From Syntrophobacterales bacterium (GTDB lineage: Bacteria; Desulfobacterota; Syntrophorhabdia; Syntrophorhabdales; Syntrophorhabdaceae), in assembly GCA_031274925.1 (NCBI GenBank), contig JAISPL010000036.1, positions 1-43,938 of the forward strand: a stretch of 43,938 bases of DNA, read 5' to 3'. The notes below the pieces were generated by a model. It had not been told where the DNA came from. It worked only from the letters and a program-made list of their open reading frames with translations, and made no database searches. Made by a program: the position numbers and the translations under genes. This document shows, piece by piece, positions 2,966 to 7,298 of this stretch (within the stretch, counting starts at the first letter, position 1; every line of letters starts with the position of its first letter).

Positions 2966-4195
2966 ATGGATGCAGAGAAGACAATAAGACCATCAGGGCA
3001 GTGTGAGCCAGAGACAGCCCCTCCGTCGGGAGAGGGAACTTTGGCAGCGAGGCAGTCTGGAACCCTTGTGGCACTCTTTGCCATCGGGTTCTTCGCTTTT
3101 CTCAATCTGTATACAACCCAGCCGCTCTTGCCTCAATTTCGGCATTTCTTCATGGCGTCTGAACTTCTGGTGAGTTTTACTGTGAGTGCCCCGGTCCTTG
3201 CGGTGACGCTCACGGCCTTCATGATCGGGCTTGTCGCCGATGCAGTGGGTCGCAAAAGGGTGATTATTGCCGCCGTTTTTGGTCTTTCTCTTCCCACAAT
3301 TCTGGCTGGGACATCGGCTAACCTTGGTCAGCTCGTGATGTGGCGTTTTTGGCAGGGGCTCTTCATTGCAGGCATCACATCCGTCACCATCGCCTATATC
3401 AGTGAGGAGTCGCCATCCAAGTCGCTGGGATCCATCATGGCGACCTATGTTACCGGGACCGTCGTGGGCGGCTTTGTGGGTCGCTTCAGTGCCGGGTTTA
3501 TTTCGGCCCGATACGGCTGGCGAATTTCCTTTATCGTCCTTGGCGTGGCAACCATGGCAGGTGCAATTGCTGCATGGTCGCTTCTCCCCCGTTCTACGAA
3601 ATTCATCCGACACCGCAATATTGTCCAGGCTCTGAAACCCATGTGGGGGCATCTCAAGAATCCTCCTCTTTTAGCCACTTATGCCACGGGGTTCAATGTC
3701 CTTTTCTGTCTCGTAGGAACGTTTACCTACGTGAACTTCTATTTGGCGGACAAGCCGTTCCTTTTAGGTCCCACCGCCCTTGCATTGATATTCGTTGTCT
3801 ACCTTGTCGGAGTAGTAATCACTCCTTTGGCAGGGCGGTTCATGGATCGCGTCGGCCAGCGGAAGGTACTTATGGGGGCTGCGGGAATGTCTGCAACAGG
3901 AATGGCCATGACCTTGATTCACTCCCTGCCGCTCATTATCGCTGGGCTTGCCCTCGTGGCTTCAGGGGTCTTCGCATGCCACTCCGCGTCGGCGAGCCAC
4001 GTGGGAAAGGCGGCCCGCGAAGCACGCTCTTCCGCGGCAGGTCTCTACATCTCTTTTTACTATCTCGGCGGCTTCGCCGGCTCCGTCATTCCCGGCATTC
4101 TCTGGAAGTACGCCGGATGGCGCGGTTGCGTGGCGATCATGATCTTCATGCAATTAATCGCTATATTGATCGCCAACCGGTGGTGGCAGCGCTAA
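2966..4195 (+). CDS. MFS transporter, YnfM-like
   Basis: Major facilitator superfamily inner-membrane protein of 409 aa with about 12 transmembrane helices after a roughly 30-residue cytoplasmic N-terminus. The cytoplasmic loop 2-3 motif GLVADAVGRKRVI is clear, as is the second-half equivalent GRFMDRVGQRKVL. The spacing and the blocks TYVTGTVVGGFVGR and SSAAGLYISFYYLGGFAGS resemble the E. coli YnfM branch of putative exporters; the substrate is unknown. A GAGGA sits 7 nt before the ATG. It stands alone, with a gene remnant upstream on the opposite strand. A weak 6-bp inverted repeat (4200-4219) follows the stop codon. Confidence 0.9.
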   Translation: MDAEKTIRPSGQCEPETAPPSGEGTLAARQSGTLVALFAIGFFAFLNLYTTQPLLPQFRHFFMASELLVSFTVSAPVLAVTLTAFMIGLVADAVGRKRVIIAAVFGLSLPTILAGTSANLGQLVMWRFWQGLFIAGITSVTIAYISEESPSKSLGSIMATYVTGTVVGGFVGRFSAGFISARYGWRISFIVLGVATMAGAIAAWSLLPRSTKFIRHRNIVQALKPMWGHLKNPPLLATYATGFNVLFCLVGTFTYVNFYLADKPFLLGPTALALIFVVYLVGVVITPLAGRFMDRVGQRKVLMGAAGMSATGMAMTLIHSLPLIIAGLALVASGVFACHSASASHVGKAAREARSSAAGLYISFYYLGGFAGSVIPGILWKYAGWRGCVAIMIFMQLIAILIANRWWQR

Positions 4196-4199
4196 AAGC

Positions 4200-4219
4200 A
4201 AAGGCGCAATCATGCCTTT
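4200..4219. other. Inverted repeat after MFS gene
   Basis: AAAGGC (4200-4205) pairs with GCCTTT (4214-4219) around an 8-nt loop, starting 5 nt after the transporter stop. No T-tract follows, so termination is only a possibility. The rest of 4220-4478 shows no gene or RNA I can support. Confidence 0.25.
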
Positions 4220-4478
4220 CCCTTGGCAAACCATCGACAGACGCCTGACAAGTATTATAAGAAGTATTTGCTCAATAAAAAGAATGTCCTGATCTTTAAG
4301 AAGAAAGACAATATTGCTCTGGTCAGCCTCACCCGCTATAGGTGTTCCGGCAAGAGTAGCCGAGGTTGCGTTTCCCAGAATTCGCGTAGGGGCAGTCCCT
4401 CGTGACAGCCGTTTTTAAATAACGACTAACGTCTGATAACCAATGACTTCAAAGACATCCTGGCGCGAACCTATTTCG

Positions 4479-4507
4479 TTGATTTTGTGATTGATCGGGG
4501 GTATATT
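4479..4507 (+). promoter_or_regulatory. Sigma70-type promoter for tadA
   Basis: TTGATT (4479-4484), a 17-nt spacer and TATATT (4502-4507). Transcription would begin near 4514, almost at the tadA ATG (4516), so the mRNA would be nearly leaderless unless translation starts further in. Confidence 0.45.
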
Positions 4508-4515
4508 TATTGTCC

Positions 4516-5010
4516 ATGGAAAGCCAAGCCATCATGCAGATCTGTCTTGACGAGGCTTGGAGGGCCTTTGACGATGGTGAAGTTCCTGTCGGTGCGGTTG
4601 TAGTCTCGGCCGGGGGAGCGGTAGTTGCAAGAACTCACAACCTCACGATTCGTGCTAATTCCCCTACGGCCCATGCGGAGATCCTCGCAATAAACGAGGC
4701 GGCGAAGGCATTAGGGAACTACCGCCTTACGGGATGTTCGCTTTACGTGACAATGGAACCTTGCGTCATGTGCGCCGGGGCAATAATAGAGGCGAGGCTG
4801 AAGGAGGTAATATTCGGATGCTTCGACGCGAAAAGAGGCGGCCTCTGCTCAATCGTTGATATAAATACACTCCCCCTGAACCACAAGCTGGAGATAAAGG
4901 GAGGAGTGCTCGAAAATGAAAGCAAGGCACTGCTCAGAAGATTCTTTCAATTAAGGAGAGGTACCGAAGTGGTCATAACGGGGCCGACTCGAAATCGGCT
5001 GTACGCCTGA
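4516..5010 (+). CDS. tadA: tRNA-specific adenosine deaminase TadA
   Basis: Zinc-dependent deaminase (164 aa) that converts A34 to inosine in tRNA-Arg(ACG). The catalytic set is complete: His53 and Glu55 in TAHAEILAI, and Cys83 and Cys86 in EPCVMCAGAI. The family's usual end, FFQLRR, is followed by about 18 extra residues encoded by the overlapping tRNA-Ser gene (from 4955). This tail is therefore probably an accidental extension and may be removed by tRNA processing of the transcript. ATG 4516 is chosen over an in-frame TTG at 4510. No good Shine-Dalgarno sequence is visible, which fits the near-leaderless promoter placement. Confidence 0.92.
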   Translation: MESQAIMQICLDEAWRAFDDGEVPVGAVVVSAGGAVVARTHNLTIRANSPTAHAEILAINEAAKALGNYRLTGCSLYVTMEPCVMCAGAIIEARLKEVIFGCFDAKRGGLCSIVDINTLPLNHKLEIKGGVLENESKALLRRFFQLRRGTEVVITGPTRNRLYA

Positions 5011-5045
5011 TAAGCGTACCGTGGGTTCGAATCCCACCCTCTCCG
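4955..5045 (+). tRNA. tRNA-Ser(CGA)
   Basis: A complete class II tRNA. The 7-bp acceptor stem is GGAGAGG (4955-4961) with CCTCTCC (5038-5044), discriminator G5045. The anticodon stem GCCGA/TCGGC encloses loop CTCGAAA, giving anticodon CGA. A long variable arm (GTACGC...GCGTAC) is typical of tRNA-Ser. The T-arm is GTGGG-TTCGAAT-CCCAC. CCA is not encoded. A T-run (5046-5051) directly follows. The first 56 nt overlap the end of tadA on the same strand. Confidence 0.95.
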
Positions 5046-5095
5046 TTTTTTACCTCGTTAATTCAAGTCGGCATTAAATCTTGTAGTCATCAACG

Positions 5096-5131
5096 AATCA
5101 ATACCATACAACAAGCTACAGAGTATTGATT
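5096..5131. repeat. Inverted repeat containing REP-like copy B
   Basis: AATCAATAC (5096-5104) and GTATTGATT (5123-5131) are perfect 9-bp complements around an 18-nt loop. The segment AATACC-ATA-CAACAAGCTACAG (5100-5120) matches the minus strand of 209-230. No T-tract follows the hairpin. The rest of 5046-5257 shows nothing else I can support. Confidence 0.45.
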
Positions 5132-5257
5132 TCATTCACCCCACATGTGTGATGTATCCACACGGGCAATGAGATCAACAGGTCATACCATAAATTTGGT
5201 CTTGATGAGTTATGTTTACCGAGGTAACCAACGACGACGACCGCCTCCCCGGCTTTT

Positions 5258-5288
5258 TTGAAAAACCTTTTCCATTATGTTGTATAAT
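5258..5288 (+). promoter_or_regulatory. Sigma70-type promoter for the ASKHA gene
   Basis: TTGAAA (5258-5263) and a consensus TATAAT (5283-5288) are separated by 19 nt, slightly long. The gene starts 30 nt downstream with AAGGA as ribosome site. Confidence 0.5.
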
Positions 5289-5318
5289 AGCGGCAAGAGA
5301 TGACACTGAAGGATATTC

Positions 5319-7298
5319 ATGGCGGAATACAGGGTTAAATTTTTTCCGATGGAGACAATGTTTAGTGCTGCTGAAAGCGATAATCTCCTTGACGTGGCGA
5401 TGAGATCTGGCGTCCACATCAATGCTTCCTGCGGAGGAAACGGCACATGCGGTAAATGCAGGATCATGCTGCGTGAAGGTGATGTGAATTCTCCTTCCCA
5501 CCGGACCATTACGCCGGAAGATTACGGGAACGGAGTTAGGCTCGCGTGTATGACCGCCATCCATGGTGATATAGCCGTAGAAGTGCCGTTGGAGTCCCAA
5601 GTTGACAGGACGGCCCTCGGCAGGCGGCGGGAGGCGCCCCATATCCTCTCCCCCTCCGATGCAGGCAAGCTCGTGGCCGGGATGGAGATTGATCCCGCAG
5701 TTTTTAAGAGATACATCAAGCTCCCTGAGCCAACCATGGAAGACAATATCTCCGACCTTGCGAGACTTACGAGAGAACTCAGGACGCAGTGCGGTATTCA
5801 CGTTCCATACGTCGATTTCCTGGTTTTAAAGAAGCTTGCGAAGGTATTGAGGGCCGGGAAGTGGAAGGTTACCGTGACGATTGCCACCACCGGCTCCAGT
5901 TATACGCTCATCAATGTGGAGCAGGGAAACAGAGAGTTTGAGAATTACTCCATCGTACTGGACATAGGCACCACCACCATCTGCGGTCAGCTTCTTGACC
6001 TTGCCAATTGCGGTGTTACCAGTATAATGGAGCGCCTGAAAAGCGAAAGGGATCTCTGCACCCTGTCTGAACACTCCGACTACAACAAACAGATCAGCTT
6101 TGGCGAAGATGTAATATCGAGAATTGTATTCTCCGGAAAGAAAGATGGGTTATGCAAGTTGCAGGAGGCCGTTGTTGACGCGATAAACCAGGTCATTGAT
6201 GAGCTTGTCGCGTCCGCCGGGATCATGGCAGATTCCATATCCCATGTTGTTTTTGCGGGAAATACAACTATGACCCACCTTCTTCTGGGCCTTGACCCCA
6301 CGTATATCATGCGGGCCCCGTACATACCCACCACAACCTTTTTTCCGCCCATCAGGGTCACCAGTCTCGGTGTGAAACTTGGCGACCATGTCCATGCCTT
6401 CACCTTCCCTTCTGTCGCGTCCTATGTTGGAGGGGATATCATTGCAGGCGTCCTCGGATCGGGTATGTTCCAGAGAAGCGAGACCACACTCTTTCTTGAT
6501 ATAGGAACCAACGGTGAAATCGTGCTTGGTAATAAAGACTGGCTCACATGCGCCTCCTGCTCCGCAGGGCCAGCATTTGAAGGGGGAGGCATAGAATTCG
6601 GCATGCGGGCGGGAAAAGGTGCGATAGAACAGGTACGCATCAACCCCTCAACATATGAGCCCATGATTCTGACCGTAGGGAAGTCCAAGCCCGTGGGCAT
6701 ATGCGGCTCCGGCCTCATTGATGTCGTGGCGGAGCTTCTGGAAACAGGTCTTATTGATCAGAAGGGCACATTCGACAGAAATGGAAAATCAGGGAGGGTC
6801 AGAGCCGGTGCGAACGGGCATGAGTATGTGCTGAGCTACGGGCCGGATACCGGGACCGGCCGGGATATTGTCATCACCGAATCAGATATTGACAACCTCA
6901 TCAGGACGAAAGCGGCGATCTATGCGGGCTGCAAAGTCCTTCTCGACAGTCTCGGTGTGAGCGTGAGTGAAATTGACACAGTCATTATCGCTGGTGGGTT
7001 CGGCCACTACATCGACCTCGAAAAGGCGATCACCATAGGCCTGTTCCCTGAACTGCCTCTCAGGAAATTCATATTTGTGGGAAACAGCGTCCTTCTCGGT
7101 GTACGGCTGGCCTCTTTTTCCAGTGAATTCCTTAAAGAAGTCAATGAAGTGACCCGCAAGATGACCAATGTTGAACTCTCTGCCAATCCTAGATTCATGG
7201 AGGAATTCGTGGCGTCCATGTTCCTGCCTCACACGGACGAGAGGGTTTTTCCGAAAGTCATGGAAAGACTTATGGGCACGCGAAAGAACGCCGAATAG
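5319..7298 (+). CDS. 2Fe-2S/ASKHA reductive activator of corrinoid proteins
   Basis: 659-aa protein of the RACo/RACE type, which uses ATP to drive reduction of inactive Co(II) corrinoid proteins back to Co(I). The N-terminal ferredoxin domain (about 1-95) has ligands Cys38, Cys44, Cys47 and Cys77. A linker leads to the large ASKHA ATPase region (DUF4445), with phosphate motifs IVLDIGTTT and FLDIGTNGE and the adenosine-side block VIIAGGFGHYID; LACMTA closes the ferredoxin domain. AAGGA precedes the ATG. A CooC-like ATPase follows 48 nt later. No corrinoid protein or methyltransferase is in the window, so the client (for example the CODH/ACS corrinoid protein or a demethylase) must be elsewhere. 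Confidence 0.88.
   Translation: MAEYRVKFFPMETMFSAAESDNLLDVAMRSGVHINASCGGNGTCGKCRIMLREGDVNSPSHRTITPEDYGNGVRLACMTAIHGDIAVEVPLESQVDRTALGRRREAPHILSPSDAGKLVAGMEIDPAVFKRYIKLPEPTMEDNISDLARLTRELRTQCGIHVPYVDFLVLKKLAKVLRAGKWKVTVTIATTGSSYTLINVEQGNREFENYSIVLDIGTTTICGQLLDLANCGVTSIMERLKSERDLCTLSEHSDYNKQISFGEDVISRIVFSGKKDGLCKLQEAVVDAINQVIDELVASAGIMADSISHVVFAGNTTMTHLLLGLDPTYIMRAPYIPTTTFFPPIRVTSLGVKLGDHVHAFTFPSVASYVGGDIIAGVLGSGMFQRSETTLFLDIGTNGEIVLGNKDWLTCASCSAGPAFEGGGIEFGMRAGKGAIEQVRINPSTYEPMILTVGKSKPVGICGSGLIDVVAELLETGLIDQKGTFDRNGKSGRVRAGANGHEYVLSYGPDTGTGRDIVITESDIDNLIRTKAAIYAGCKVLLDSLGVSVSEIDTVIIAGGFGHYIDLEKAITIGLFPELPLRKFIFVGNSVLLGVRLASFSSEFLKEVNEVTRKMTNVELSANPRFMEEFVASMFLPHTDERVFPKVMERLMGTRKNAE

Follow-up and report, generated by a model that had tools for sequence, protein, structure and literature searches.

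The window, by which we mean the whole stretch of 43,938 nucleotides analyzed here, carries a gene for a predicted TadA, the deaminase of tRNA adenosine-34, that runs into the gene for tRNA-Ser(CGA) on the same strand (Table 1). The protein matches the NCBIfam TadA model NF008113 with 151.4 bits (cut-off 150) and the Pfam deaminase family PF14437 with 115.5 bits, and residues H53, A54, E55, P82, C83, M85 and C86 are invariant in an alignment of 34 sequences. They form the motifs HAE and PCxxC, the zinc/catalytic motifs of the deaminase. A gene for tRNA-Arg(ACG), the substrate of TadA, is present in the same genome (G000, locus L154), and in E. coli tadA is essential. The structurally characterized TadA proteins from E. 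coli (1Z3A), S. aureus (2B3J) and A. aeolicus (1WWR) belong to the same family, and the alignment places FF and RR in a C-terminal helix in E. coli TadA just as in the protein from the window. In the latter, RR and a tail of 16 residues are encoded by a tRNA, whereas the RR of none of the three is known to be so encoded.

Table 1. Features at the tadA/tRNA-Ser(CGA) junction, in coordinates of the window
Feature	Position	Strand	Remarks
Predicted sigma-70-like promoter TTGATT-17-TATATT	4479..4507	+	-10 element ends 8 nt before ATG
tadA, tRNA adenosine(34) deaminase (predicted)	4516..5010	+	164 aa; ATG 4516, TGA 5008-5010 inside the tRNA
Codons AGG AGA = R147 R148, RR of FFxxRR	4954..4959	+	4955-4959 = tRNA nt 1-5
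tRNA-Ser(CGA)	4955..5045	+	91 nt, CCA not encoded; ARAGORN and Rfam tRNA
Tail GTEVVITGPTRNRLYA beyond RR	4960..5007	+	tRNA-encoded; AlphaFold2 pLDDT under 50 for residues 151-164; different tail in genus g9
tadA stop codon TGA	5008..5010	+	tRNA nt 54-56, variable arm

The window sequence holds one continuous tadA frame that extends without interruption from the ATG to the TGA, and the tRNA (56.2 bits) is the sole match to the Rfam tRNA family at the gathering threshold in the window. ARAGORN, Rfam and the open frame agree on a shared same-strand segment of 56 nt (4955-5010). That tadA runs into tRNA-Ser(CGA), as stated in a preliminary description of this DNA, is thereby confirmed, and the statement that the last 18 residues of the deaminase are encoded by tRNA sequence stands as well, R147 to A164 (numbered from ATG 4516) being the residues touched by the tRNA. 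The junction reads ...TTT CAA TTA A|GG AGA GGT ACC..., with the bar marking tRNA nucleotide 1. Of the R147 codon (4954-4956), the first base precedes the tRNA; RNase P is expected to cut between 4954 and 4955, within this codon. The same description had predicted that RNase P, by processing a joint transcript, would remove the tadA stop codon, and this agrees with the position of the latter well inside the tRNA.

Within its own genome the overlap is unusual. From 44 listed tRNAs, 43 distinct ones were examined for open reading frames entering from upstream, three of them with less than 300 nt of upstream sequence. Frames of at least 100 aa entered a tRNA in three cases and only tadA stops inside its tRNA; shorter frames that end inside other tRNAs of this genome measure 71 aa at most. 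A 231-aa frame over tRNA-Thr, which runs past the 3' end of the tRNA and has no Pfam match, and a 106-aa frame over tRNA-Asn, which likewise runs past the 3' end, were judged spurious, the second on reading. On its downstream side, tRNA-Ser(CGA) is followed by six T directly after the discriminator base (5040-5052). An encoded CCA is also absent at this tRNA in 12 of 33 class loci. No intrinsic terminator was found downstream of the tRNA in the window, and a T run occurs there in only some members of the class. The next gene downstream (5319-7298) codes for an AcsV-related corrinoid activation protein; its score of 675.6 bits falls short of the cut-off of 800.

The C-terminus of the predicted TadA follows the pattern FFxxRR, and its arginine pair is read from the tRNA acceptor stem, with A|GG and AGA as codons. 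Throughout the 35 loci sharing the frame of the window, FF and two further residues (three in L137 and L146) lie outside the tRNA, and RR derives from the base at position -1 together with tRNA nucleotides 1-5. At each of these 35 junctions RR is read from (A/C)|GG AG(A/G), with AGG in L030 and L146. Position -1 holds A or C throughout, yielding AGG or CGG, both of which specify arginine, as compared with A or C in 84 of 104 other loci (Fisher 0.0038); the weight of this comparison is modest, as non-users also often have one of these two bases here. On the tree the base changed three times, always between A and C, two of the changes falling within the class. The two arginines are not equally constrained. 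R148 is invariant both in the 34-sequence alignment and in one of 47 sequences, whereas R147 exceeds 90% in the former, where two rows from genus g9 have lysine instead, and stays below 90% in the latter. The E. coli motif is FFRMRR, which we take to be residues 148-153 with RR corresponding to R152/R153, and in the alignment with 1Z3A R148 coincides with R153. According to a study on the E. coli enzyme, R153 is essential for the deamination of RNAs with tRNA-like cores (PMC8052359). In an AlphaFold2 model, RR forms the end of the last helix (residues 133-148), and the mean pLDDT is 84 for residues 141-150. We therefore consider it most likely, judging from alignment and model, that the tRNA supplies an important part of TadA.

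The tail beyond RR makes a different impression. Its predicted pLDDT falls below 50 for residues 151-164, that is for the last 14 of its 16 residues, several positions vary non-synonymously (V/A/E, V/A/D, I/V/T), and genus g9 possesses another tail altogether. Because of this predicted disorder, the non-synonymous changes and the replacement in g9, a functional tail was rejected; with the exception of the stop codon, the tail is regarded as tolerated and not as selected.

A protein query at 1e-20 recovered tadA from 34 of the 46 class genomes. The gene enters the tRNA in all 34, in 29 of them in the frame of the window and in five, all from genus g9, in another; a stop before the tRNA occurs in none of these 34 genomes. 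Conservation of the overlap in relatives, which the preliminary description had proposed as a check, is thus complete among class genomes with tadA. The 29 proteins align with the query through residue 162-164, and those from g9 end at 152-153. At the DNA level the stop is readable in 33 of the 34 loci; in the remaining one (G024, L132) the bases are masked after the tail EGEVPKRS, so that stop and tRNA are unreadable. In 29 class loci the frame extends 56 or 59 nt into tRNA-Ser(CGA) before it stops, and in four, all belonging to g9, it extends 24 nt and stops in the D loop (L014 shows 25 nt because ARAGORN sets the start of the tRNA one base early). A quickly built TadA tree with 160 rows unites those of the class in one clade (SH-aLRT 99), within which g9 is nested. 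Genus g9 must accordingly have changed frame and tail, and it still overlaps; this distribution indicates that the overlap is old within the class. The 12 genomes lacking a TadA match at 1e-20 (G003, G008, G013, G026, G028, G030, G031, G033, G034, G037, G041 and G043) may be incomplete assemblies or may have lost the gene. At 1e-3, ten of them yielded distant matches only (25-41% identity; the best, 4.2e-12 in G034, covers residues 6-99) and two yielded none. Six of the 12 are rated 96-99% complete.

All 34 loci whose overlap measures 56 or 59 nt carry an in-frame stop in the variable arm. Counted by distinct arms, it occurs in 20 of 20 arms of users and in 25 of 65 arms of non-users; the Fisher value of 2.4e-7 is a guide and not to be taken literally, as the sequences are related. 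For this count, L045 was left out with its tRNA unparsed, seven of 104 non-user rows with an earlier stop were excluded and L146, which has a 47-nt overlap, was placed among the non-users; if it is moved, the numbers become 21 of 21 and 24 of 64. Since L146 likewise stops in its variable arm, none of the 35 loci in the frame of the window reads through. Across the 35 loci, at least 12 changes affected which stop codon is used or where it lies, at least nine of them within the class, and the result was always still a stop. The third reading frame is open across the whole tRNA in 33 of 33 class loci and is used by none. Taken together, the patterns at the second arginine and at the stop bear the signs of selection and point to a real, conserved coding overlap.

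The predicted promoter in front of tadA is, when the window is regarded alone, within chance, since the consensus scan of positions 4150-5330 gave one promoter-like match and 1.7 were expected. Its place is what recurs: an element of this kind ending 5-8 nt ahead of the start codon is present in 30 of 33 class loci as opposed to five of 139 other tadA loci and 3-5% in shuffled sequences, the count for the 139 being rough because their start codons were chosen by rule. In 23 of the 30 the element ends exactly 6 nt before the start codon. L027, L028 and L029 are without the element and the overlap is still present in them. From the position of this element, transcripts are predicted to begin at or next to the start codon, and the tadA message would be leaderless or nearly so. 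In leaderless bacterial mRNAs, transcription begins at the start codon or close to it; the message predicted here would resemble them in this respect, with the differences that its start is predicted from the conserved promoter position only and that its other end is joined to a tRNA. A separate promoter for the tRNA, which the preliminary description had named as a possible refutation, received no support from the consensus scan: no sigma-70-like site was found inside tadA in the window, and over the last 150 nt before the tRNA the mean best score in 33 class loci was 6.7, compared with 7.1 for codon shuffles. This genome yielded a single tRNA-Ser(CGA), so that the tRNA and TadA may both depend on one promoter.

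Outside the class, 78 loci from the phylum were inspected, and tRNA-Ser is the first same-strand downstream tRNA in 53 of them. Seventeen of these 53 sampled neighbours overlap and 36 do not, a proportion that does not describe a random sample since the loci comprise the highest-scoring matches and roughly one further locus per family, drawn from those listed out of 270 matching genomes. The earlier judgement that a coding overlap of this kind is unusual consequently applies within the genome of the window and not to the phylum at large. Six of the 78 loci duplicate loci from another homologue set of this analysis, and 30 of 212 tadA loci that share the last 160 junction bases with another were counted once. 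The tree was calculated by a quick method after removal of duplicates and partial matches, with SH-aLRT as sole support. Three entry frames exist among all loci examined, overlap lengths of 1, 24, 34, 47, 49, 56 and 59 nt recur, and rows with the frame of the window fall into four separate groups of the tree: the class, family f40, L137 (f39) and L146 (f66). The state changes between overlap and non-overlap at least 12 times on the tree, a count of gains and losses taken together. Relatives whose TadA ends at FFxxRR, likewise named beforehand as a possible refutation, do exist outside the class: in L047 and L050, for example, FFSKRR is followed immediately by a stop. They reveal the natural C-terminus and do not refute the overlap. 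In L045, L047, L050 and L095, from records titled Deltaproteobacteria, the stop TAG is split as TA|G with the G being tRNA nucleotide 1, and RNase P cleavage there would leave a message ending in UA.

It appears fairly probable, on the strength of the compared sequences, that a single joint transcript serves both as tadA mRNA and as precursor of tRNA-Ser(CGA), that the RNase P cut leaves a nonstop message without RR and that the two products compete for every molecule. From the coding overlap, its conservation, the promoter-like element upstream and the maintained stop, all of which are present in the sequences themselves, we infer joint transcription, cleavage by RNase P at its usual place, a race and a rescue. 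Transcription would begin at or a few bases from the tadA start codon and continue through tadA into the tRNA, and RR and the stop would be translated from sequence of the acceptor stem, D arm, anticodon arm and variable arm. Cleavage at tRNA nucleotide 1 would split the first arginine codon and release an upstream piece ending ...UUA A, which would encode TadA up to FFQL and possess no stop. Because RR and stop would be lost on cleavage, full TadA would arise only from RNA translated before processing, hence the predicted competition. While completing TadA, a ribosome would occupy a portion of the tRNA and so should hold RNase P back, and an early cut would strand the ribosome, which would then need to be rescued. 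Ribosomes stranded on nonstop messages are rescued by tmRNA, and a tmRNA is present in the genome of the window (185.8 bits). The simplest reason why the arrangement would persist, and the most likely one, is entrenchment: with an important portion of TadA encoded in the tRNA, the overlap would be held in place, and leaving it would require an insertion with new RR codons and a stop. The proposal that tRNA maturation is linked to TadA expression follows from this anatomy and is plausible, although RNase P might act too slowly in comparison with the ribosome, which would make the race negligible. An extension to the class as a whole, with each leaderless transcript giving rise to either a complete TadA or a tRNA and the speed of RNase P deciding between them, since its cut would remove the arginines that TadA probably needs for acting on tRNA, is speculative and in our estimation rather unlikely. 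If it were true, TadA output would fall automatically whenever tRNA processing outruns translation.

Passive compaction is a possible, though less probable, account of the same facts. Deletions would have put tadA onto the tRNA, the acceptor stem would have replaced the RR codons and exit would have become hard; translation would end long before RNase P acts, with neither competition nor an effect on expression. The three frames, the several overlap lengths and the repeated changes of state on the tree fit this account, and because of these changes part of the pattern may indeed be passive gap shortening. Genus g9, which lies within the class and overlaps despite its changed frame and tail, fits it as well, as does a tail that is mostly disordered by prediction and varies non-synonymously. 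What compaction does not readily accommodate is that RNase P and translation would share one transcript, on which a leaderless start would favour processing, for translation from leaderless starts is often weak. Another view, an adaptive switch in which the race between ribosome and RNase P sets TadA output, for instance by keeping the ratio of enzyme to tRNA low or by providing less TadA when processing is fast, strikes us as improbable. It would agree with the occurrence of the overlap in every class genome with tadA, with a promoter of leaderless type that is largely confined to the class, and with the predicted loss, on cleavage, of the residue that matches E. coli R153 in the alignment. 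However, entrenchment alone accounts for fixation, no regulatory sequence was found beyond the overlap, many related families have a gap instead, as do the 36 non-overlapping neighbours outside the class, and the promoter count at the other loci is rough.

In a further reading, the tRNA would be made separately from a promoter of its own inside tadA, with the overlap mattering at the DNA level only. A single tRNA gene often needs strong expression, which speaks for such a promoter, and divergent promoters would escape a consensus scan. Nevertheless, the scan gave no sigma-70-like site within tadA in the window and none exceeding codon shuffles near the tRNA in 33 class loci, and the conserved promoter-like element is located upstream of tadA; we consider a separate promoter distinctly unlikely. 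An artefact, whether of the assembly or of the choice of frame, such that TadA in truth ends earlier, is very improbable. The genome is a draft in 57 contigs, but the same kind of junction recurs in separate genomes whose TadA proteins are 49-73% identical to that of the window (33 rows), R148 is conserved and the stop is maintained across the tRNA.

In the mitochondria of animals, mRNAs are freed by cuts at tRNA borders, and some of their stop codons are completed by polyadenylation. We would regard this tRNA punctuation as the nearest working analogy. In both cases a tRNA processing cut sets, or would set, the 3' end of the message preceding the tRNA and may take away or divide the stop codon of this message, and the split TA|G in the four Deltaproteobacteria records resembles the incomplete mitochondrial stop codons. 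As in transcripts of the mitochondrial type, coding region and same-strand tRNA adjoin directly in the window, here with an overlap. That one transcript spans both is a prediction; sequence scans found a conserved promoter-like element upstream and no internal one. In contrast to the mitochondrial situation, the window belongs to a bacterial chromosome, and the cut would remove conserved residues plus the stop. Polyadenylation would not rebuild a stop in the window, since A added to ...UUA A reads lysine, which is neither a stop nor RR. The nearest relatives in organization are bacterial mRNA-tRNA operons such as secG-leuU and the tufB tRNA operon of E. coli, in which processing enzymes separate the message from the tRNA. 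They have in common with tadA/tRNA-Ser that a protein message and a tRNA reside on one transcript, here a predicted one; their coding region ends before the tRNA, whereas tadA ends inside it. Among the literature matches listed in a full-text search, whose coverage leaves most subscription papers outside, there was no description of a tadA/tRNA-Ser overlap.

The acceptor stem of a bacterial tRNA gene here doubles as codons for two arginines of a tRNA-modifying enzyme, one of which is invariant and aligned with the residue described as essential for tRNA-like substrates in the E. coli study (PMC8052359). The overlap makes testable how one RNA is shared between translation and tRNA maturation and what becomes of a nonstop message when processing wins. 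It also bears on annotation, as gene callers that forbid overlaps between coding regions and tRNAs would shorten or drop tadA.

Some further loci deserve mention. In L146 (G230), the tRNA-Ser(CGA) overlapped by tadA is followed by tRNA-Ser(GGA) and then by tRNA-SeC, all three being substrates of seryl-tRNA synthetase. In L214 (G267:C53:26944-27984), tRNA-Arg(ACG), the substrate of TadA, takes the place of tRNA-Ser and lies 202 nt downstream of tadA. L103 and L106, from records named Moorena bouillonii and Acidobacteria bacterium Mor1, agree in tadA identity, stop, tRNA positions and tail, and contamination of one of the records is a possible cause of this likeness; L106 was dropped as a duplicate junction, and the full loci, compared unaligned, are not identical position by position.
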